IMG/VR virus record: IMGVR_UViG_3300035034_000715 | Coordinates: 1-34,780 of that record | Strand: one strand, 5' to 3' | Length of the DNA: 34,780 bases | Source: a virus | Shown: positions 930 to 25,800 of the stretch, one piece after another | Layout: every line of letters starts with the position of its first letter | Numbering within the stretch: the first letter of the stretch is position 1 | The notes under the pieces: generated by a model | Seen by the model: the letters and a program-made list of their open reading frames with translations, nothing else | Told to the model about the DNA's origin: nothing | Databases searched by the model: none | Made by a program: the position numbers and the translations under genes

Positions 930-1802
930 TCATTTGGGTTCGTCCAACTGACCAATCATCTGAATCCGCTCACCGATCCACCGCAGGACCGGGACCGCCA
1001 TTGAGTTTCCGAGCGCCTTGTAGCGTGGGCCATCGGCCGCCGGTTTGTTGCGGTGCTGAACCTGCGTGTATCCGTCTGGGAACCCTTGCAATCGCTCGCA
1101 TTCGCGCGGGGTGAGGCGCCTGACGGCGGAGCCGTATTGAATGGCCCCGACGCCTATCCCCGCACGCCCGCCGTTCGGCGTCAGCAAGGCGTTGGCCGTG
1201 CCGTCGAACCTGTATTCGAGGTTGCTTTCATCGCCTCTGCCACGGATCGCGAGTGTCGCTACCGCCATCTGCCCACCCCCATTTGGGCACGACGCTGAGG
1301 GACGGTCCCAGCCTCTAGAATTTGCAACAACGAACACACGGCGGCGTCGCTGGGCCACTCCGAAGAACTGAGCGTCAAGCACTCTGTAGGCGAACCCATA
1401 CCCGAGTTGGACCAGCGCCCCGAGAAAGGCACCAAAGTCCCGTCCGCCGCCTGATGACAGGACGCCGGGGACGTTCTCCCAAACCAGCCACTCGGGCCGA
1501 TATCTGTCAGCAATTGCAAGATAGGTGAGGGCGAGGTTTCCCCGCGGGTCAGCAAGGCCCTTTCGAAGTCCCGCGACGCTGAACGATTGGCAGGGGGTGC
1601 CTCCAACGAGAACATCGACATTTGCATCTGGCCACTCCTTGAACCTGGTCATGTCGCCCCAATTCGGGACGGCCTGGTAATGGTGCGCAAGAACCGCTGA
1701 CGGGAACGGTTCAATCTCGCTCACGGCGATCGACCGAAAGCCGAGCGGGTGCCAGGCGCACTCCGGGGCGCCGATGCCTGAACAGACCGAAAGGACGTTC
1801 AT
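930..1802 (-). CDS. DNA (cytosine-5) methyltransferase
   Basis: All diagnostic motifs of the C5-methyltransferase family are present in order in 290 residues: SVCSGIGAPE (AdoMet loop, about 5-14), GGTPCQSF with the catalytic Cys near residue 71, WENVPGV (about 108-114), QRRRRVF (about 151-157), TPRECERLQGFP (about 231-242) and ALGNSMAVPV (about 263-272). The target-recognition region between about 160 and 225 is short, as in many phage orphan enzymes. No restriction endonuclease is adjacent, so the likely role is to protect phage DNA from host restriction. The ATG at 1802 overlaps the TGA of the upstream gene by 4 bases, which fixes the start. The site recognised cannot be read from sequence. 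Confidence 0.95.
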   Translation of the reverse strand: MNVLSVCSGIGAPECAWHPLGFRSIAVSEIEPFPSAVLAHHYQAVPNWGDMTRFKEWPDANVDVLVGGTPCQSFSVAGLRKGLADPRGNLALTYLAIADRYRPEWLVWENVPGVLSSGGGRDFGAFLGALVQLGYGFAYRVLDAQFFGVAQRRRRVFVVANSRGWDRPSASCPNGGGQMAVATLAIRGRGDESNLEYRFDGTANALLTPNGGRAGIGVGAIQYGSAVRRLTPRECERLQGFPDGYTQVQHRNKPAADGPRYKALGNSMAVPVLRWIGERIQMIGQLDEPK

Positions 1803-2125
1803 CCGCTTTCGCCCTTGTCGTCCAACTGACCACGAATAGCCGCGACCGCTTCGAAGTATTCGACCGCGGCCATAACCTCGCGCCGATTCGGCTTTTTTGC
1901 CCAATACCACTTTCCGTCCGAAAGCGACTTGTTCCGGCACCCGACGCGGACCCACGGCTTGCCGTCTATCCACCATCCTACCGCCGTCCATCCGTCTGGC
2001 GTGCCTAGCGGCACAACGCGCTTGGTTTTGAACTGTCGGCGGATCCGTCGGCCGCCGGGCGCGTACCCGTCGACCACATAGGCGGTCCGCTCCGGGTCAC
2101 CCCAGATTCGTTTTTTTATGTCCAT
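1799..2125 (-). CDS. Small hypothetical protein (108 aa), paralogue of the right-edge gene
   Basis: The basic, Trp-rich protein starts MDIKKRIWGDPERTAYVV and contains the block VRVGCRNKSLSDGKWYW. It is preceded by AAGGGGATCGAA. The gene overlaps the methyltransferase start by ATGA, so the two are probably co-translated. A diverged copy lies at 34646-34780: 34 of 40 aligned residues are identical, but the C-terminal tails differ (GQLDDKGESG here, AEDE there). Function unknown; a small DNA-associated accessory protein is a guess from the charge. Confidence 0.75.
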   Translation of the reverse strand: MDIKKRIWGDPERTAYVVDGYAPGGRRIRRQFKTKRVVPLGTPDGWTAVGWWIDGKPWVRVGCRNKSLSDGKWYWAKKPNRREVMAAVEYFEAVAAIRGQLDDKGESG

Positions 2126-4167: not shown

Positions 4168-5310
4168 ATGGCGCACAGAAGACCGACATCCGACGACATC
4201 CGGGCCGAATTCGACGGTCAAGGGCTGGTCGACCTGATCGGCGGCCGGAAGGGTCCGGGCGGGCTTCCCGCCGTCGACCTGAAACACCGGTCCGGTCGTC
4301 TCTGGGGTCTCTGCCCATTCCATAACGAGAAATCCCCGTCGTTCACGGTCGACCTGGACCGGACGCCTTCAAATTGGAAATGTTTCGGCTGCGGTCGCGG
4401 CGGATCCGCCTTCGATTATGTGATGCAAGCGTTCGGCTGTTCGTTCGTCGAAGCTATGGACGCCCTGCGCGGCGACATCACGCCCACGACCGACCCGGCC
4501 GTCGCCGCCGAACGCGACCGCAAGCGGGCGGCCTGGGCGGCGCGGGAAGAACGGGACAAGGCGCGGCGGATCGAGACCGCCCGCGCGCTCTGGAAAGCGG
4601 CAAAGCCCGCCGCCGACACAATCGTTCCCGCCTATCTGACGTCGCGCGGGATCCGCACCGCCCCGCCGCCGACCTTGCGGTTCATCACCCCCGAAGATCA
4701 GGCGCGAGTGTGCCGCTGGGCGGATCCGCTGGATACATCGGAAGGTCTGGGGTCGTTTCCCGCCATGATCGGCGGTTTTCAGGACGCGACCGGACAGGTC
4801 CGCGCGGTTCATCTGACTTATCTGCGCCATGACGGGAGCGGCAAGGCGGCGGTCGGCAAGGCGAAACAGATCTTTGGTCTGTTCGGCGCGGCCGCGATCC
4901 GGCTGTCGCCGCCCGCGCCGACCATGGCAATCGGCGAAGGGATCGAGACCTGTCTGTCGATCCTCGATCGCTTCCCCGGCTGGTGCGTCTGGTGCGCGGG
5001 GTCGCTGGGCAATATGGCGGGACCCGGCCGCGGCCCTTCGACCCCGCACCCGGACAAGCCCGGATCGACGATCCCGTCACCCCTCCCCGACATGCGGACC
5101 CCGGCAATCGTCCCGCCGCCGGTCGCCGAACTGTTCATTCTGGGCGACAGCGACGGCGATGTCGCAACCGCCCGCGCGCTTGTAGACCGGGCGGTCGCCC
5201 GCTATCGCCGCCGACAGATCCCGACCGCCGCCGTCTTCGCGGCCGAAGGCATGGATTTCAACGATATGGCCCGCGCCCGCGCCGCCCGCACCGATCAGGT
5301 GTCGGCATGA
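4168..5310 (+). CDS. DNA primase, CHC2 zinc finger plus toprim
   Basis: The 380-residue protein has an N-terminal CHC2 zinc-binding domain (CPFH at 49-52, CFGC at 72-75). Its toprim catalytic domain shows GEGIET (about 256-261) and the acidic DSDGD (327-331). This is the DnaG-type primase core without the helicase-binding tail, as in many phage primases. It would make RNA primers for phage replication together with the ATPase at 6034. The ATG at 4168 has GGAGGGGG upstream; readings that extend further 5' run through the preceding HTH gene. The stop overlaps the next gene by ATGA. Confidence 0.9.
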   Translation: MAHRRPTSDDIRAEFDGQGLVDLIGGRKGPGGLPAVDLKHRSGRLWGLCPFHNEKSPSFTVDLDRTPSNWKCFGCGRGGSAFDYVMQAFGCSFVEAMDALRGDITPTTDPAVAAERDRKRAAWAAREERDKARRIETARALWKAAKPAADTIVPAYLTSRGIRTAPPPTLRFITPEDQARVCRWADPLDTSEGLGSFPAMIGGFQDATGQVRAVHLTYLRHDGSGKAAVGKAKQIFGLFGAAAIRLSPPAPTMAIGEGIETCLSILDRFPGWCVWCAGSLGNMAGPGRGPSTPHPDKPGSTIPSPLPDMRTPAIVPPPVAELFILGDSDGDVATARALVDRAVARYRRRQIPTAAVFAAEGMDFNDMARARAARTDQVSA

Positions 5311-6071
5311 CGGCGCGGCGGATCGAGACAATCGGATCCGCGACGCTCTATCTGGGCGACGCGGTCGACATCATGCCGACCCTGGGCGGCCTCGATCTTA
5401 TGGTCACCGATCCACCCTATCGGCTGACGTCCGGCGGCGGGAGTCCGTCATGGGCGACGAACGGGTCATTTGCTGGGTACGACAACAAAGGATCACCGGT
5501 CGCGTGCGATCTGGATTGGTCGGATTGGCTTCCGGTCGCCTTCGCCTGTCTGCGCGCCGATGCCGACGCCTATGTGATGGCGAACGATCGCCAAATGTTC
5601 CCGGCGTTCGAAGCGGCGACCGATGCCGGGTTCCGGTTTCACAGGATCGTCACCTGGGACAAGGGGTCCGCGACCCCTAATCGCTGGTATATGCCGAACG
5701 TCGAGTTCGGGCTTTATCTGTTCAAAGGCAAGGCGAAGACTATCCGGTCGCCCGGGTCCTTCGCGGGCGTCCGGATCCCGCACCGGGATCAGACCCAGCA
5801 CCGCACCGAAAAGCCGACAGCCCTGTTCGACTACTGGATCCGCAATTCATCCGACATCGGTCAGACCGTGATCGACCCGTTCATGGGGACCGGAACCGCC
5901 GGGGTCGCAGCCGCCCGCCTGGGGCGCCCTTTCATCGGAATCGAAATCGAAGACCGCTGGTTCGATGTCGCGTGCGAGCGGATCCGCCGCGCCCAAGATC
6001 AAGCCGATTTATTCGCAATGTCCGGGGGACAGAATGACCGACCAAGATCCTACATCCCAAGACCCGATTGA
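5307..6071 (+). CDS. Beta-class DNA methyltransferase (N6-adenine or N4-cytosine)
   Basis: The 254-residue protein has the catalytic DPPY at 35-38 near the N-terminus and the AdoMet motif DPFMGTGT at 190-197 near the C-terminus, with HRTEKP between. This order defines the beta class (CcrM, and N4-cytosine enzymes such as PvuII). DPPY favours adenine N6 but does not settle it. It is coupled by ATGA to the primase and overlaps the helicase start by 38 bases, so it is an early gene, probably anti-restriction or regulatory. No partner endonuclease is present. Confidence 0.92.
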   Translation: MTARRIETIGSATLYLGDAVDIMPTLGGLDLMVTDPPYRLTSGGGSPSWATNGSFAGYDNKGSPVACDLDWSDWLPVAFACLRADADAYVMANDRQMFPAFEAATDAGFRFHRIVTWDKGSATPNRWYMPNVEFGLYLFKGKAKTIRSPGSFAGVRIPHRDQTQHRTEKPTALFDYWIRNSSDIGQTVIDPFMGTGTAGVAAARLGRPFIGIEIEDRWFDVACERIRRAQDQADLFAMSGGQNDRPRSYIPRPD

Positions 6072-15330: not shown

Positions 15331-15993
15331 ATGGATCTGCGCGCAACGACGACCATCATCACCGACCCAGCCGCTGAACCGGTGACCCTTGCCGAACTGA
15401 AAGATCATCTTCGGATCGAGGTCGCCGACGAAGACGATTTTCTCGACGCGCTGATCACCGCGGCCCGCGAATGGGTCGAGGGCTGGACCGGCCGCGCGTT
15501 CGTCACCCGAACCCTGGAAACCCGGCTTGACCGGTTCCCGGTCGCCTTCGACCCGGTGTCGCTCGATTACATCGCCCCCGGACAGGCGGCCCCGAAAACC
15601 ATCGATCTTCCGGTCGGCCCGGTGCGGTCGGTGACGTCAATCACATATATCGCGGGCGACGGCACGCTGACGACCTGGGCGTCGTCGGGGTATCAGGTCG
15701 ACACGGTGTCGCCGATCGCAAGGATCGCGCCCGCCTTCGGGTCGTACTATCCCGCGACCCGTCACGGCGACTTCGGCGCGGTGCGGATCCTATACGAAGC
15801 CGGATATGCGCCGGGCGACGGGTCCCCGGCCGACTACGCGGAGAATGTCCCGAAGCGGGTCAAACAGGCGATCAAGCTGCTGGCGGGGCATTGGGAAGCG
15901 AACCGGACCGCGGTTCTGACCGGAACGATTTCGAAAGAAGTCGAATTCAGTCTGGCGTCGATCCTCTGGTCGCTGCGCACCCGTGCCAATTAA
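15331..15993 (+). CDS. Head-tail connector protein (gp6 / phiE125 gp8 type)
   Basis: The N-terminus PVTLAELKDHLRIEVADEDDF with the following LITAAREWVEGWTGRAF is the helical signature of the gp6-like connector family. A beta domain (VGPVRSVTSITY, GAVRILYEAGY) and a closing helix complete the family length. These proteins form a ring below the portal. The end overlaps the first sugar-cassette gene by 11 bases. Confidence 0.88.
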   Translation: MDLRATTTIITDPAAEPVTLAELKDHLRIEVADEDDFLDALITAAREWVEGWTGRAFVTRTLETRLDRFPVAFDPVSLDYIAPGQAAPKTIDLPVGPVRSVTSITYIAGDGTLTTWASSGYQVDTVSPIARIAPAFGSYYPATRHGDFGAVRILYEAGYAPGDGSPADYAENVPKRVKQAIKLLAGHWEANRTAVLTGTISKEVEFSLASILWSLRTRAN

Positions 15994-16609
15994 CGCGGCA
16001 TCGATCGCGGTCCCGCGTCTCTGGCGGGGGGCGACCGTCGCGATCCTGGGCGGCGGTCCTAGCCTGACCTTATCCGCGATCGTCGAGGTCCGGCGCCGCG
16101 GCTGGCAGATTATCGCGATCAATAACGCCTACACCATCGCCCCCGATGCCGATCTGTTGTGGTGGTGCGATCGGAACTGGTTCGAACTACATCAGGCGCG
16201 GCCCGCGTTCAAAGCCTTCGGAGGGATCCGCGCGACCCTGGAAAACCCGGGATTGCCCGCCGATTATCATCTGGCGAATACCGGCCCCGACGGGATCGAG
16301 GTCGACCCGCGCGGGGTGCGGACGGGGACGAATTCGGCGCATCAGACGATCAACCTGTCGTGTCACCTGGGCGCGGCCCGGATCGTGCTGTTCGGGATCG
16401 ACGGGTCGTATGATGCGGGCGGCCGGTCACACTGGCACGGCGGACACCCGTTCCCGCACAAGGAAGGGTACTATGCCGAAAAGATGATCCCGCTTTTGCG
16501 CACCGCGGTCGCCCCGCTTGCCGATCTGGGGGTCGAAGTGATCAACGCAAACCCGAATTCGAAGGTCGACGCCTTCCGTCGGATGTCGCTGGACCGGATC
16601 CCGGTCTGA
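15983..16609 (+). CDS. Rossmann-fold glycosyltransferase-like protein (DUF115/GT42-like)
   Basis: The 208-residue protein has a nucleotide-binding start (GATVAILGGGPSLTL, about 16-30). IINNAY-type and ADLLWWCDRNWF segments follow, then TNSAHQTINLSCHLGAARIV, GIDGSY and HWHGGHPFPH. This combination recalls the MptE-like/DUF115 and GT42-like proteins that handle nucleotide-activated sugars. It overlaps the connector gene and is coupled as TGATG to the next cassette gene. It is the first of six sugar-related genes embedded in the structural operon. The exact reaction is unknown. Confidence 0.6.
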   Translation: MPINAASIAVPRLWRGATVAILGGGPSLTLSAIVEVRRRGWQIIAINNAYTIAPDADLLWWCDRNWFELHQARPAFKAFGGIRATLENPGLPADYHLANTGPDGIEVDPRGVRTGTNSAHQTINLSCHLGAARIVLFGIDGSYDAGGRSHWHGGHPFPHKEGYYAEKMIPLLRTAVAPLADLGVEVINANPNSKVDAFRRMSLDRIPV

Positions 16610-17421
16610 TGCCGCGCAAGGCGATCGCCTGGGTTCTGATCCATTCGAAGGTGCTGACCCGGATCGATGCGTTCGAAGCCGGGTTCCGCCGCTGCGGATA
16701 CGATGTCAGCCGCCGGACCCCGCACAATATCCAAGCCGACGACGCGCTGGTGATCTGGAACCGCTTCGGCAATGGCGCCCGCTTCGCCGAAGCCTTCGAT
16801 GCGATCGGCGCCCCGGTGCTGATCGTTGAAAACGGATATGTGCCGCACCCGTCGGGGGCGGATACGCTTGCGGCGGCGTGGTCGCGACATCTGGGCGCCG
16901 GGATCTGGCCCGAAGGCGGCCCCGATCGCTGGGACCGCTGGGGGGTCGCTCTGTCGCCCTGGCAAGGCCGCGACCCGGGCGCCCCGATCCTGTTGGCGCC
17001 GCAACGCGGGATAGGTCCCGCCGACACCGCGCCGCCGTCCGATTGGATCCGGCGGACGACCGACTATCTGAAAGCCCGCACCGACCGGCCGATCCGGGTC
17101 CGACCGCATCCCGGCGCAACCAAACCGGCCCGCCCGCTGTCCGACGATCTGAGCGAAGCCGCGGCCGTCGCGGTTCACGCGTCGCGGGTCGGGATCGAAG
17201 CGCTGATCGCGGGCGTTCCCGTCCTTTCGACGTGGCCGCACTGGATCGGGGCGTCGGCATCGTCGGCCCTCTGGTCCGACCCGCTTCCGCGCCCGGACCG
17301 GCTGGCAATGCTTCAACGTCTCGCCTGGGCGCAATGGACGGTCGAGGAAATCGCGAATGGTCCCGCAATCGCCCGGCTTCTACATTGCGCCCCGGAAGGG
17401 CTTCGGCCGCCGGATCTGTGA
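16609..17421 (+). CDS. GT-B glycosyltransferase-like protein, copy 1
   Basis: The C-terminal half has RPHPG (165-169), HASRVGIEALIAGVPV (190-205), LWSDPLPRP (221-229) and QWTVEEIA (242-249). The HxSxxxIEAxxxGxPV stretch resembles the donor-binding region of capsule-polysaccharide and GT-B enzymes, where a conserved small/acidic loop contacts the nucleotide sugar. The gene downstream has the same block layout, so the pair is a tandem duplication. The start overlaps the previous stop as TGATG. Confidence 0.65.
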   Translation: MPRKAIAWVLIHSKVLTRIDAFEAGFRRCGYDVSRRTPHNIQADDALVIWNRFGNGARFAEAFDAIGAPVLIVENGYVPHPSGADTLAAAWSRHLGAGIWPEGGPDRWDRWGVALSPWQGRDPGAPILLAPQRGIGPADTAPPSDWIRRTTDYLKARTDRPIRVRPHPGATKPARPLSDDLSEAAAVAVHASRVGIEALIAGVPVLSTWPHWIGASASSALWSDPLPRPDRLAMLQRLAWAQWTVEEIANGPAIARLLHCAPEGLRPPDL

Positions 17422-18151
17422 GCGGTTCGCGCAAGTGGCGGGCGGCCGGGTTCTGGGCGCCCCGCCGAAACTGGATCCGCGACACCTTCCCGCGTTCTGG
17501 GGGGTCGATCACACCACGACCGCCCTGTTCGCCGCCGCCCGATCGGGCGGTCGGTTTCTGTATCTTGATCACTGTTACTTCGGCCCCCGCCGCGCACATA
17601 TCCGCATTACCTGGGATCGGATCCAGCACCCCGGCACCGGCCGCGGTGATCCGGATCGGTTCCGTCGCCTGGGGATCCCGATCGAGCCATGGCGCGGGTC
17701 GGGCGGTCATATCGTCATCGCGCCGCCCGGCGATCCGTATCTTTCGGCGACCGGTGCGGGGTTCACGTCCGACGCCTGGGGTCGGCGGGTCAAGGCGCAG
17801 ATCTACGCGCAGACCGACCGGCCGTTCGTCTATCGCTTCAAGCCGACCGAAGCGCAACCGGGTCGACCGCTGCGCTGCGATCTGGCGGGCGCGCATTGCC
17901 TGATCACACATCTGTCGGCGACCGCGATCGAAGCTGCTTTGATGGGGATCCCGGTGTTCGTCACCGCGCCCGATGCGGCGGCGGCCCCGGTGGCGGCGGA
18001 TCTCTGGTCCGGCGATCTGGAACGCCCCCGCACCGATGTCGACCGGGAAATCTGGGCGGCCGTGCTGGCGGCTAATCAATGGACGCAAGACGAAATAGCA
18101 AGCGGCCGCGCCGGGTCTGATCTGAGGGCAAGCGATGGGGATCGGCGATGA
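17357..18151 (+). CDS. GT-B glycosyltransferase-like protein, copy 2
   Basis: The 264-residue protein has HLSATAIEAALMGIPV (185-200), LWSGDLERP (216-224) and QWTQDEIA (241-248), aligned with the same blocks in copy 1. Its N-terminal half (FYIAPRKGFGRRI, FLYLDHCYFGP) has diverged more, as expected if the acceptor differs. The start at 17357 overlaps copy 1 by 65 bases and follows GAGGAAA; the length matches copy 1. The RPHPG of copy 1 is RFKPT here, so one copy may have altered activity. Confidence 0.65.
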   Translation: MVPQSPGFYIAPRKGFGRRICERFAQVAGGRVLGAPPKLDPRHLPAFWGVDHTTTALFAAARSGGRFLYLDHCYFGPRRAHIRITWDRIQHPGTGRGDPDRFRRLGIPIEPWRGSGGHIVIAPPGDPYLSATGAGFTSDAWGRRVKAQIYAQTDRPFVYRFKPTEAQPGRPLRCDLAGAHCLITHLSATAIEAALMGIPVFVTAPDAAAAPVAADLWSGDLERPRTDVDREIWAAVLAANQWTQDEIASGRAGSDLRASDGDRR

Positions 18152-18896
18152 AATCATGGCGATCGGGCAAGCCCGCGCCGCGGGTGCGACCCCCGACCGC
18201 CGTGCGGTTGTGCTGGATCGCTCCGGGTTCGCGCGGTGGCATCCGCAATTCAATGGGGTTCCGTTCCTGGCAAAGTCGGCCGACGGCGCCGATCTGTCGG
18301 TTCTGAACGGCCCGGGGGCGCGGCCTTATGTGGATTATGCCCGCACGACGTCGGACCGCTGGGCGTATACCGAATGGTCCGCGTCGGTCGGTGTGATCCC
18401 CGGGATCCGCTGGGTCGGCGGCCGCCGCGGCGATGCGCCGACGGTCCTGATCGAGCCGACGATAAAGCCGAACGCGTCCCCGAATAAGCAATGGGGGCGG
18501 GCGCGCTGGGAAAAGCTGGTCGCCTTGTGCGGCCGGTCGGTTCTGTTTCTGCAATGTGGGGCGGATCCGCGCGAAGCGATCGACGGGGTCCGGTTCTGTC
18601 AGACCCGCGACTTCGCGGCTGCGGTCAAGGTGATGGCACGCTGCGATGCGGCGATCTTGCCCGAAGGCGGCTTGCACCACGCGGCCGCCGCGATCGGGTC
18701 CCCGGCGGTCGTGCTGTTCGGCGCGATGACCCGTCCGCAAAACACCGGATACCCGGCGCACCTGAACCTTGCGGTCGACGACCCGGAGGCAACCGGATGG
18801 CGGATCCCTCACCCCGCCTGTTCCGCCGCCTGGGCGGCGATCACCCCTTCGGTCGTGGCGGACAGCCTCGACCGGATCCTGAACCCGAACAGATAG
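18135..18896 (+). CDS. GT9 (heptosyltransferase)-like glycosyltransferase
   Basis: The N-terminus MGIGDEIMAIGQAR matches the GxGD loop of GT9 enzymes. The C-terminal PEGGLHHAAAAIGSPAVVLF followed by GAMTRPQNTGY corresponds to the GT9 donor site (normally GGxxHxAAAlGxPxvxlFG). GT9 enzymes transfer ADP-heptose or related sugars. At 253 residues it is shorter than cellular heptosyltransferases (about 320-350), with a reduced N-terminal domain. It overlaps copy 2 by 17 bases. Confidence 0.78.
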   Translation: MGIGDEIMAIGQARAAGATPDRRAVVLDRSGFARWHPQFNGVPFLAKSADGADLSVLNGPGARPYVDYARTTSDRWAYTEWSASVGVIPGIRWVGGRRGDAPTVLIEPTIKPNASPNKQWGRARWEKLVALCGRSVLFLQCGADPREAIDGVRFCQTRDFAAAVKVMARCDAAILPEGGLHHAAAAIGSPAVVLFGAMTRPQNTGYPAHLNLAVDDPEATGWRIPHPACSAAWAAITPSVVADSLDRILNPNR

Positions 18897-18904
18897 GCTT
18901 CCCG

Positions 18905-19606
18905 ATGCCGAAAGTCTCAATTCATCCCGGCACCCCGCCCGGCGCCAAACTGCATCGCGGCGTATGGCTTCCCGAAACCGAAACCCATTTCGTCAAGATG
19001 ATGGATCCGAGCGGGAAGCGGTATGCGGAACTGCCCGACGGTCGTGCGACCTATCAGCGGCACAAATATCTTGCCGCGCTGGGGTTCGTCAAAGATCCGA
19101 AGATCTTTGTCGACATCGGCGCGCATGTCGGTCTGTGGGCGTATCAGGCGGAACGCGACTTCGACATGATCATCAGCTTCGAGCCTGTCGAGGATTTCCG
19201 CGAAATCTATCCCTTCAACATGCGCACGACCAATTGGGAATGCTACCCGTGCGCGCTGGGATCCGCCGAAGGATCCGTCGCCCTGACCGTCAACCCGACC
19301 GACACCGGATGCACTCATATCACCGGGGACGGCGACGTTCCGGTCCGGACTCTGGACAGCTTCGAATTCAGCCGGATCGATCTGATCAAGATCGACGTCG
19401 AGGGCTTCGAACGCCATGTCGTCGAGGGCGCCCGGGAAACGCTGTTGCGCACCCGTCCGGTCGTGGTTGTCGAACAGAAAGGGAATGATGCCACCAATTT
19501 CGGGGAAGACCGCGACGGTGCAGTCGATTTCCTGAAATCCGAAATCGGCATGGTCCCGCTGACGAACCCGTTGGCGGGCGATTGGATCATGGGCTGGGCG
19601 ACCTGA
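18905..19606 (+). CDS. FkbM-family methyltransferase
   Basis: The 233-residue protein has the AdoMet motif VDIGAHVGLW (69-78), FEPV (92-95), a short LGSAEGSVAL segment and the family signature LIKIDVEGFE followed by a C-terminal strand (PVVVVEQKG). FkbM enzymes O-methylate hydroxyls on small molecules and frequently sugars. Within this cassette the natural reading is methylation of the sugar being assembled. It starts 8 bases after the GT9 stop; its own stop overlaps the next gene as TGATG. Confidence 0.88.
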   Translation: MPKVSIHPGTPPGAKLHRGVWLPETETHFVKMMDPSGKRYAELPDGRATYQRHKYLAALGFVKDPKIFVDIGAHVGLWAYQAERDFDMIISFEPVEDFREIYPFNMRTTNWECYPCALGSAEGSVALTVNPTDTGCTHITGDGDVPVRTLDSFEFSRIDLIKIDVEGFERHVVEGARETLLRTRPVVVVEQKGNDATNFGEDRDGAVDFLKSEIGMVPLTNPLAGDWIMGWAT

Positions 19607-20373
19607 TGGCCCCGTTCCGCGTCTTTATCGGATACGATCCGCGCGACGACCTGGCCTATCGGGCGGCGGTCGCGTCGCTGCACAATCGCGCATCGATCCC
19701 GATCGAAATCATCGGGATCCGCGACCCCGGCCTTCGGATCGGCGGCGATTACTGGCGGCCGTATGTGGTCGAGGAAAACGGACAGATGATCGACAGCGGC
19801 GACGGCCGTCCGTTTTCGACGCAGTTCGCGTTCACCCGGTTTCTGACCCCGCACCTTGCCCGCAAGCTGGGCGCGGATCCGTATGACTGGTGTCTGTTCA
19901 CCGATGCCGATGTTCTCTGGCAAGCCGACATCGCCGATCTGCTGGAAGACCTTGAAGAGTTCGACACGGACATCGCCGCGGCTTGCGTGAAACACGAGTG
20001 GCAACCGGTCGACGACGTCAAAATGGGCGGGCTGTCACAAGTCGGATATGCCCGGAAGAACTGGTCTTCGGTGATCGCGTTTCGAACGCGGGTCGCTGAC
20101 ACGCTCACCCCGCATTATGTCAGCACCGCATCCGGTCAAGCGCTGCATTCCTTCGCCTGGATCCCCGACGCCAATCTGGGCGCGCTCGATCCCCGTTGGA
20201 ATTGGCTGGAACCGTCAAGCGATTGGGCGGTCGACCGGGCGCTGTTGCACTACACCCGCGGCACCCCCGACCTGATGCCGACCGCCGGGCTGATCGATCA
20301 AGCGGAATGGTGGTCTGCGGTCCGCGCCTTCCGCGGTGACATGGAGGTCTTGCCATGCAGTCGGGAAGCCTGA
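19606..20373 (+). CDS. GT-A glycosyltransferase-like protein with DxD motif
   Basis: The N-terminus FRVFIGYDPRDDLAYRAAVA and the metal-binding FTDADVLW (98-105) define a GT-A fold. The layout is close to GT8-like and galactosyl/mannosyl-transferase-like proteins found in other phages and capsule loci. A long C-terminal part with HYTRGTPDL and EWWSAVRAF likely holds the acceptor site. It is the last gene of the sugar cassette and overlaps the head-closure gene by 19 bases. Confidence 0.8.
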   Translation: MAPFRVFIGYDPRDDLAYRAAVASLHNRASIPIEIIGIRDPGLRIGGDYWRPYVVEENGQMIDSGDGRPFSTQFAFTRFLTPHLARKLGADPYDWCLFTDADVLWQADIADLLEDLEEFDTDIAAACVKHEWQPVDDVKMGGLSQVGYARKNWSSVIAFRTRVADTLTPHYVSTASGQALHSFAWIPDANLGALDPRWNWLEPSSDWAVDRALLHYTRGTPDLMPTAGLIDQAEWWSAVRAFRGDMEVLPCSREA

Positions 20374-20678
20374 ATCAGCGCATCCGCTTCGAAGCCGAGA
20401 CGGTCGGCGACGACGGCATGGGCGGCGGCGCGTCAAGCTGGGCGGAGTTCGTCACGGTCTGGGGCGCGGTGCGGCCGCTGTCCGGTCGCGAGCGGACCCA
20501 AGCCGATCAGGTCGAGGCGCCCGCGAATTACGAATTCACCATCCGCCGCCGGTCGGATCTGACCGAAGCGCTGCGGATCAGTTGGGCGGGGGATCTGTTC
20601 AATATCCGGTTTATCGCCCTTCCCGATCCCCGGTCGCTGACCATGACGATCACCGCCGAACGGGCGGTCGCGACATGA
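20355..20678 (+). CDS. Head closure / head-tail adaptor protein (gp16-like)
   Basis: MQSGSLNQRIRFEAETVGDD with WGAVRPLSGRER and the closing LFNIRFIALPDPRSLTMTIT form the small beta-barrel of the Phage_H_T_join/SPP1 gp16 family. It seals the DNA-filled head. Its usual place is directly after the gp6-like connector; here the six-gene sugar cassette separates the two. Confidence 0.9.
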   Translation: MQSGSLNQRIRFEAETVGDDGMGGGASSWAEFVTVWGAVRPLSGRERTQADQVEAPANYEFTIRRRSDLTEALRISWAGDLFNIRFIALPDPRSLTMTITAERAVAT

Positions 20679-22814: not shown

Positions 22815-25800
22815 ATGGCAACAGTCGAAGAACTGCTGGTCCGCATCGACGCGTCGACGGAATCCCTGCGCCGCGAATTGAAGCGGGCCGAAAAGGGTGT
22901 CGACGAAAGTCAGAAGAAGATCGACCGGTCGCTGGGGCGGATCGACAAGCGCTTCGCATCCATGGGCGCGGCCGTGACCAAGGTCACCCGCGCCCTGGGT
23001 CCGCTGGGCGCGGCCCTGTCGGTCGGTGCGATGACGCGGTTTGCGTCGCAAACCCTGAAGACCGGCGACGCCTTGGCGAAGACCGCCGACAAGCTGGGTC
23101 TGACGATCGAAGGGCTGCAGGAACTGCGCTTCGCGGCCGAGCGGACCGGCGTCGCGTCGGGGACCCTCGACATGGCGATGCAGCGGTTTACCCGCCGATT
23201 GGGGGAAGCCGCGAACGGGACCGGTGAACTGCAAGGAACGCTGACCCGCTACAACATCGCGGTGCGGGATTCGAACGGCAACCTGCGATCGAGCGAAGCG
23301 GTTCTGGGCGATCTTGCCGAAGCGATCAAGAATGCCGGGACCCAACAGGAACGCTTGGGCATCGCCTTCAAGGCGTTCGACAGCGAAGGCGCGGCCTTGG
23401 CTGTCACCTTGCGGAAGGGGCGCGACGGCCTCGACGCGCTGCGCCAATCGGCCCGCGACGCGGGTGCGGTTATGTCGACCGACACGGTGCGGGCGGCCGA
23501 AGCCGCGAATGACGCGCTGGCGGTCATCGGGGAAACCGTTTCGACGGCGGTGTCGAACGCGTTCATCATCGCGACCGCGAACGTCCTGGCGTTCTTTGGG
23601 GTGATTTCGCAGTTCGACCTGATCGCCGATAAGGCGGAGCGTCTGGCCGAAATGGAAACCCGGATCGCTAGTCTCACGGCGAAGCTGTCGGAAGACCGCG
23701 TTCACAATCGCATGGGGTTGAGCCGCGAACTTGACGAATTGACCGCATCGGCGGCCGATCTGAAAGCCGAACTTGAAGATCTGGCGAAGCCGGGCGGCGG
23801 CGGCGGCAACGGCGGCGCGCTGGACGATTTCAACGATGCGGTTGAAAAGGCGTTTCTCGGACTGGAAAAACAGAACGTCGCGGTTCAGAACGCGGTTCTG
23901 ACCTTCGGGCAATCCGAAGGGGCGATCGCGCGGGTCAAGGCGGAACAGGAATTTCTGAACATCGCCCGTGAGCACGGGACCGTTCTGATCGAACAGCACA
24001 AGGACCGGCTGCGCGAACTGCTGGACGAATACGAACGCAACGTCGACGAAGCCGAAAAGGTCGAGGCGGCGGAAACCGCAGCGAACAAGGTGCGCGAAGA
24101 CGCAGCCAAGGCGGCGGAAAAGGCGGCCGAAGCGACCAAGGAATATAACGACAAGCTGGCGGAATTCCGGGCCGAGCCATTCCTGAACGCGCTGCGCGAT
24201 ATGCAGACCCTGTTGACCGATAAGATCGAGTCGGCGCTGTCTGGGTCGCTGGATAGTCTCGACGATTGGGCGGATGCGTTCCTGTCGATCGTCCGGCGCT
24301 TGGCCGCGAACCTGTTCGCGCAACAGTTGATCATTCCTATCATGTCCGCGGGCGCGGGCGCTTTCGGGATCAGCGCGTCGTCGGCCTTTGGCTTGCCGCA
24401 AAACCCGAACGGCGGGGCGGGTGGGATGGCGGGCGGTATTCCGGGCGGAATCAACCTTTCCGATCTGGCGTCGCTGTTCACTGGCGGCACGACCGGCGGC
24501 GGGTATTCCCTGATCGGTGCGGGCGGCGGCACGCTGGGGACGACGCTGTTCGGCCCGGCGACGGCGGGCGCGGTGCCTTACGGCACCGGGACGGCGCTGA
24601 TCGGCGGCGGTATGTTCGGGTCGAACGCGGTGCTGCAGGGGGCGTTCAACAATCTGTCGAACCCGCTGAACGGTCCGGCCGGGTTCGCGGGCAATTTCCT
24701 CGCATCGCAGTTTCTGGAACAGTCGACCGGATCCAGCATCGGCGGCACGATCGGCGGCATCGCGGGTGGTGCGGCCTTCGGCCCGGTCGGCGCGTTCCTG
24801 GGTGCCGCGGCCGGGAATTTCATCGGCGGACAGTTCGGCACCAATCCGGCGTCGGTCGGCCCGACCGGGGTCGCGATCACAAGCGACATTTTTCGCGACG
24901 GTCTGCCCGACATGCTGACCGGTGTCGACAATGGCGGCGACGCGACCGCCGCCGTGATGGCGCTGGAAGCGATCAATTCGGCGGTGGTGTCGCTGACCGA
25001 CGACCTTCCCGACGCGGTCCGCGCGACCGGTCTGTTCGGCCTGGATGTCAGCTATTACCCGAACCCGGAACCCGGAAGCGACGGCGACCGGTCGGCCGGG
25101 TTCGGGCTGAACGAAATGATCGACGGCGTCAAACGCGAGTTAAATATTTCCGGGCTGTCGGGCGACGAAGTGCTGTTCGAAGGGGTCAAGCGGACGCTGG
25201 AAAACGCGTTCGAAAGCCTGGGCGATTCCCGGCTGGATCTGGCCTTGGAGAACACCGCCGCCGAAACGCTGGAAGACCTGCTGGAAGATCTGAACTTCGC
25301 GCAGACGATCGCGGATTTCGTGAACGGTGTCGAAGCCGATGCGCCGCTGACCGCGGTCGAACAGGCGTTCGAAAATTTGTCCGATGCGATGGCCGACGGG
25401 ATCGATAAGGCGGAAGATCTGGGTCTGTCGGTGCAAGAGACGACCAACTATTTCAACAGCCTGTCGGATGCACTGTCCGAAGATGTTCAAGCCGGGTTCG
25501 ACGAAGCGATCCGGCAATCGACCGGACAGGGTTTTCTGACGACGGCGGGCGCCCTGCTGGATGCCCGAGATCAGAACAGCCGCGACGCGACCGCCGCGGG
25601 TCTGAACCTGAACGATACCGCGGGCGAACTGTTCGACGCGGATTTCAAGAATTTCGTGAACGGTCTGTCGCTGTCCGATCTGGTCACCCTTGCGTCTGAC
25701 GCGACCGTCGCCGCCGATGCCCATGCGTCCGCGATCGTCCGCAATGAAATCGTGTCTCGATCGGCGGCAGTCGGGATCGAGGCGCTGACCGACAGCTATC

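Follow-up and report, generated by a model that had tools for sequence, protein, structure and literature searches.

A six-gene glycosyltransferase and methyltransferase cassette among the neck genes of a virus genome: a candidate virion glycosylation system

The IMG/VR virus record IMGVR_UViG_3300035034_000715, which may be a fragment, was analyzed over its full 34,780 bases (hereafter the window). It carries a late operon of the HK97/lambda type, in which six intact open reading frames (ORFs) on the + strand occupy positions 15983-20373. These ORFs (the cassette) lie between the genes for the gp6-like head-tail connector Ad1 and the head-closure protein Hc1, and their predicted products are glycosyltransferases (GTs) and a methyltransferase. 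The original prediction, which was made from the DNA letters, proposed that this cassette glycosylates a capsid or tail protein of the virion. In this study, we evaluate that proposal using homology, predicted structures, and the genomic settings of related genes.

The cassette and its predicted enzymes

When the six ORFs were recomputed, their coordinates and junctions agreed exactly with the original prediction. In order from Ad1 to Hc1, the junctions are overlaps of 11, 1, 65, and 17 bases, a gap of 8 bases, and overlaps of 1 and 19 bases. The ORFs are not chance occurrences because their homologs are under purifying selection, their codon usage matches that of the structural genes (r = 0.97), and the identical gene order recurs. 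In close pairs, the ratios of nonsynonymous to synonymous change (dN/dS) of cassette genes are mostly 0.07-0.5, which is similar to structural genes; an outlier of 5.4 comes from one Hc1 pair in which synonymous change is almost nil. Terminator-like and promoter-like sites in the cassette region occur at chance level.

The enzyme families named earlier hold, and the assignment of the second gene (gene B) could be sharpened to a GT-B fold of the GT99/KpsC type. An AlphaFold model of its product has a pLDDT (predicted local distance difference test) score of 94, and the twelve best PDB matches found by Foldseek are ten structures of KpsC or WbbB and two of KrkA, with E-values from 4e-7 and a probability of 1.00. 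All three proteins are transferases of 3-deoxy-D-manno-oct-2-ulosonic acid (Kdo). As judged from the model, gene B has this Kdo-transferase GT-B fold. The matches are enzymes of the type that uses cytidine monophosphate (CMP)-Kdo, not DNA- or base-modifying enzymes, which would have counted against the original proposal for this gene. The gene B product differs from KpsC, WbbB, and KrkA in being 270 amino acids long and in having marginal sequence similarity (best profile match to KpsC, E 0.08). Among viral predicted structures, the top match of the model is a protein of the Caulobacter phage CcrColossus.

Gene C is homologous to gene B, as an alignment reveals conserved core columns common to both, and its homologs in Caulobacter giant phages are about 30% identical. 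Neither B nor C has a Pfam match. The GT9-like protein matches PF01075 with 30 bits (curated cut-off 22), and the FkbM-type methyltransferase matches PF05050 with 55.8 bits (curated cut-off 22.7). In the GT-A protein, the DAD-motif residues D100 and D102 are invariant in an alignment of 48 sequences, and the DxD region weakly matches WbbM and an enzyme of family GT8.

The first gene of the cassette, of the DUF115 type, matches PF01973 weakly, below the cut-off. Its product also matches a profile of CstII/GT42 sialyltransferases (E 0.003) in a noisy search in which ferritin chains scored equally well or better. An AlphaFold model based on an alignment of sequences from the window and related loci has a pLDDT of 95, and its fold matches are split between ST8SiaIII and proteins resembling thiamin pyrophosphokinase.

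No 19-residue segment of any cassette protein exceeds a Kyte-Doolittle (KD) value of 1.63, and hence there is no clear membrane anchor. Likewise, no flippase or lipid-carrier gene was found among the cassette proteins by their Pfam families. Donors of Kdo and heptose are present in typical Gram-negative hosts. The fold of gene B and the presence of a GT9 gene suggest that host CMP-Kdo and adenosine diphosphate (ADP)-heptose are the donors, and a host supply of these compounds would explain why the cassette lacks genes for sugar-nucleotide synthesis. Larger cassettes in other loci include genes resembling flavin adenine dinucleotide (FAD)-dependent oxidoreductases and short-chain dehydrogenases (L116:12657-14242, L173:14059-14649), and these additional enzymes possibly help to make a sugar donor.

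Downstream of Hc1 follow Ne1, the tail terminator, the major tail protein (MTP), and then the tape measure gene at 22815. Elsewhere, the window encodes two DNA methyltransferases, of the C5-cytosine and N6/N4 types, at 930-1991 (-) and 4983-6071 (+), the second of which overlaps the primase ORF, and also a YfbR-like phosphatase. ARAGORN reported a tRNA with an undefined anticodon within the tape measure gene (24542-24636) that is probably spurious.

Table 1. Coordinates of the cassette genes and late-operon genes in the window
Feature	Position	Strand	Evidence or context
TerS	9569		HK97/lambda-type late operon
TerL	10167		HK97/lambda-type late operon
Portal	11753		HK97/lambda-type late operon
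Protease	13022		HK97/lambda-type late operon
Major capsid protein (MCP)	13743		HK97/lambda-type late operon
Ad1/gp6-like head-tail connector, upstream border of cassette	15331-15993	+	PF05135 4e-11, phrog_442 2e-26
DUF115/MptE-like, GT42-like transferase, GTG start	15983-16609	+	phrog_4603 3e-31; overlaps Ad1 by 11
Gene B, GT-B, KpsC/WbbB-like	16609-17421	+	AlphaFold fold match; virus-enriched family
Gene C, paralog of gene B	17357-18151	+	Alignment with B; overlaps B by 65
GT9 heptosyltransferase-like	18135-18896	+	PF01075 4e-7, above cut-off
FkbM-type methyltransferase, ATG at 18905, in frame within ORF 18491-19606	18905-19606	+	PF05050 8e-15; phrog_8156 4e-25
GT-A glycosyltransferase with DAD motif, ATG at 19606	19606-20373	+	phrog_28018 3e-41; overlaps Hc1 by 19
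Hc1 head-closure protein, downstream border of cassette	20355-20678	+	PF05521 3e-24, phrog_25

Recurrence among neck genes and age of the insert

A profile scan with gene B yielded 167 relatives in IMG/VR compared to 5 in about 85,000 bacterial and archaeal genomes. The family is therefore strongly enriched in viruses, with a ratio that is approximate because slightly different patterns were used for the two scans. We surveyed the loci of the best 80 of the 167 viral relatives together with the 5 genome loci (85 loci, or 74 after removal of near-duplicates), and each locus extends at most 10 kb to either side. Cassette and structural genes were located in these loci using profiles from the window, Tetraselmis viridis virus S20, and Pseudomonas phage PMG1, and the scans rest on short conserved patterns.

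A recognizable structural neighbor is present in 59 of the 74 dereplicated loci and absent from 15, some of which are short contigs. Nearly all of the former (56/59) place gene B within the segment from the portal to the tape measure gene. To give a sense of scale, this segment without the cassette makes up 22% of the remaining window (6,672 of 30,390 bases). The nearest flanking genes share the strand of the cassette in every case (89/89). Because iteratively built profiles could drift, ten sampled flanks were checked against PHROG, and all ten proved to be connector, head-closure, neck, or major head proteins. The exact joint varies among loci, with MCP|Ad1, Ad1|Hc1, and Hc1|Ne1 among the commonest. 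Genes for DUF115, C, and GT-A accompany gene B in 37, 36, and 38 of 46 loci, respectively. We found no description of such a neck cassette in the open-licence literature. One locus in a 394-kb contig of a Kiloniellaceae metagenome-assembled genome (L191:9346-12025) carries the cassette between the tail terminator and the tape measure gene, apparently within a prophage.

The closest relative is represented by two contigs (L107 and L108) that overlap by 3,066 identical bases and belong to one phage, which was also recovered from other metagenomes (L272 and L273). This phage likewise carries all six genes at its Ad1|Hc1 joint, arranged as in the window. Its proteins are 45-56% identical to those of the window for the cassette and 44-68% for most structural proteins, with lower values for the small tail chaperone (37%) and the tape measure protein (41%). 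The cassette is therefore long resident, since its proteins and the structural proteins are separated from those of this relative to about the same extent. A search of phage records gave no DNA match to the window, and its best portal match in viral contigs, with the patterns used, is 35% identical.

Among phages matched by their portal proteins are relatives that lack the cassette and whose neck genes follow one another directly (L198 and L204-L207, among others), and a relative found through TerL (L274) likewise has Ad1 and Hc1 adjacent to each other. These cases bear out the earlier statement that the two genes are normally neighbors. The cassette is therefore an accessory element inserted at a hot spot among the neck genes, but one that is old in this lineage. 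Long residence had originally been argued from the density of GATC sites. The count of 13 at 17041-17640 is correct, but such sites abound throughout the window (568 versus about 115 expected from base composition; GANTC occurs 58 times) and their density is thus a weak indicator; similar divergence from the closest relative and codon usage show long residence better.

What the enzymes may modify

Virion glycosylation is the best explanation for the cassette, and we consider it probable. Modification of a virion protein is favored because of the placement of the genes, their common strand, their co-inheritance with the structural genes, and the absence of membrane or lipid-carrier parts. As the virion is put together, soluble cytoplasmic enzymes, expressed together with the head-tail genes, would construct on one of its proteins a short oligosaccharide bearing O-methyl groups. 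The host would supply the nucleotide sugars: the GT9 protein would plausibly draw on ADP-heptose, and the products of the DUF115 gene and of genes B and C on CMP-Kdo or a different CMP-sugar. The benefit might be altered adsorption, particle stability, or shielding. A tentative extension, which we regard as rather doubtful, is that, in many phages of Gram-negative bacteria, a virus-specific module of this kind decorates neck or tail proteins with a methylated glycan that contains Kdo and heptose and resembles the inner core of lipopolysaccharide (LPS), so that the particles imitate a host surface sugar. What stands of the original prediction is the link to the virion, given that the toolkit recurs inside late structural operons; glycosylation of a virion protein, the acceptor, the donors, the order in which sugars are added, and an effect on immunity or adsorption are steps that we infer.

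Several observations weigh against virion glycosylation. The evidence for a glycan is indirect, coming from the genes. The fold of the DUF115 protein is ambiguous as modeled, being either sialyltransferase-like or pyrophosphokinase-like. Inspection of MCP, MTP, Ad1, and Hc1 revealed no shared C-terminal motif that could serve as an acceptor. Furthermore, homologs in Pelagibacter phage Mosig adjoin genes for ribonucleotide reductase and RuvC, not structural genes. Collagen-like proteins were also considered as acceptors and rejected, because they are present as well in phages that lack the cassette (14/21 with the cassette versus 10/25 without in the portal-matched set, p = 0.085).

Collagen-like proteins adjoin the cassette in 21 of the 85 loci. 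In many of these phages, a protein of this (GXY)n type is encoded immediately downstream of the portal gene (for example, L112:1846-2751, L175:3682-4863, and L182:7765-8754), and its gene sometimes ends where the DUF115 gene begins. A role for the cassette in defense was likewise rejected, as PADLOC gave no match.

The enzymes could instead act late in infection on the LPS core or another surface glycan of the host, so that, for instance, newly made virions do not bind debris or other phages are kept out. By family, KpsC- and GT9-like enzymes belong to LPS or capsule synthesis, and soluble transferases could have access to the LPS core because it is built in the cytoplasm. We nevertheless judge this alternative unlikely, given that the genes reside in the neck operon in nearly all loci with a recognizable neighbor, that the cassette includes no lipid-carrier, flippase, or membrane gene and its proteins no clear membrane segment, and that late genes act as the cell nears lysis. 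Co-expression with structural genes had been put forward as an argument against surface modification; this is reasonable, but late modification of host LPS would be compatible with such expression.

Another possibility is that these are passenger genes, tolerated in the neck hot spot, that serve a different purpose involving sugars. The variable joint and the existence of relatives without the cassette are features expected of accessory modules. However, purifying selection comparable to that on structural genes, the frequent association of the DUF115, C, and GT-A genes with gene B, and the divergence of the cassette in step with the phage backbone make this quite improbable. Glycosylation of modified bases in phage DNA, which some phage glycosyltransferases reportedly carry out (Pyle 2024, as cited in PMC12619734) and which would fit with the two DNA methyltransferases and the YfbR-like phosphatase of the window and with the nucleotide-metabolism genes near the Mosig homologs, is very unlikely, because gene B has a predicted Kdo-transferase fold, the genes are located in structural operons, and no gene for base hydroxymethylation was found among the window proteins scanned from this possibly incomplete record.

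Comparison with other phage systems

The cassette differs from serotype-conversion clusters of the gtrABC type, which include a membrane flippase and polyprenyl-linked transferases, neither of which was found among the Pfam families of the window's cassette. Partial counterparts occur at similar positions in two phages. Virus S20 has genes for DUF115-type proteins, glycosyltransferases, and methyltransferases between the connector and Hc1, and in the D3-like phage PMG1 a DUF115 gene precedes Ad1 and a methyltransferase gene follows Hc1. The gene B/C family was not detected in S20 or PMG1. Phage P1 pmgO and pmgP (L012:3956-5139), annotated with a "putative morphogenetic function," are homologous to the DUF115/GT42-like gene of the cassette.

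Freeman reportedly described virion glycosylation in the mycobacteriophages Che8, Corndog, and Myrna (Freeman 2023, as cited in PMC12363180). As in the mycobacteriophage system, which has phage glycosyltransferases and a methyltransferase domain, the cassette encodes several glycosyltransferases and a methyltransferase; a glycan on a capsid or tail protein is reported there and proposed here. The Che8 genes gp108-110, located at the right genome end, are different, in that they encode a GT2 fused to a methyltransferase, a GT2-like protein, and a GT25, and they are not homologous to the cassette (all cassette profiles scored below 6 bits against them). The cassette may thus work like the Che8 system, but it is not a member by descent. 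Two papers describe mycobacteriophages that glycosylate capsid and tail tube with their own glycosyltransferases (PMC12363180; PMC12619734). Glycosylated virions are on record for a small number of mycobacteriophages, and if our interpretation is true, an unrelated set of enzymes accomplishes it in many proteobacterial phages from a neck hot spot.

The most similar toolkit occurs in the Caulobacter giant phages CcrSC, CcrColossus, and CcrPW (Dolichocephalovirinae), in which genes for DUF115, B, C, and GT-A are neighbors in that order, followed by a methyltransferase gene and then, in CcrColossus, an annotated family 9 glycosyltransferase gene; the counterparts of this gene in CcrSC and CcrPW are matched by our GT9 profile. 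These proteins are about 30-36% identical to those of the cassette and are likewise encoded beside virion genes. However, the order after gene C differs, the set directly follows the last tail gene and precedes the lysis genes (endolysin) instead of lying in the neck, and its members are mostly annotated as hypothetical. If virion glycosylation is the true function, gene B, a hypothetical protein gene in the Caulobacter phages, becomes a marker for this activity. Because these phages are cultured and carry most of the toolkit, virion glycosylation is open to direct test in them.

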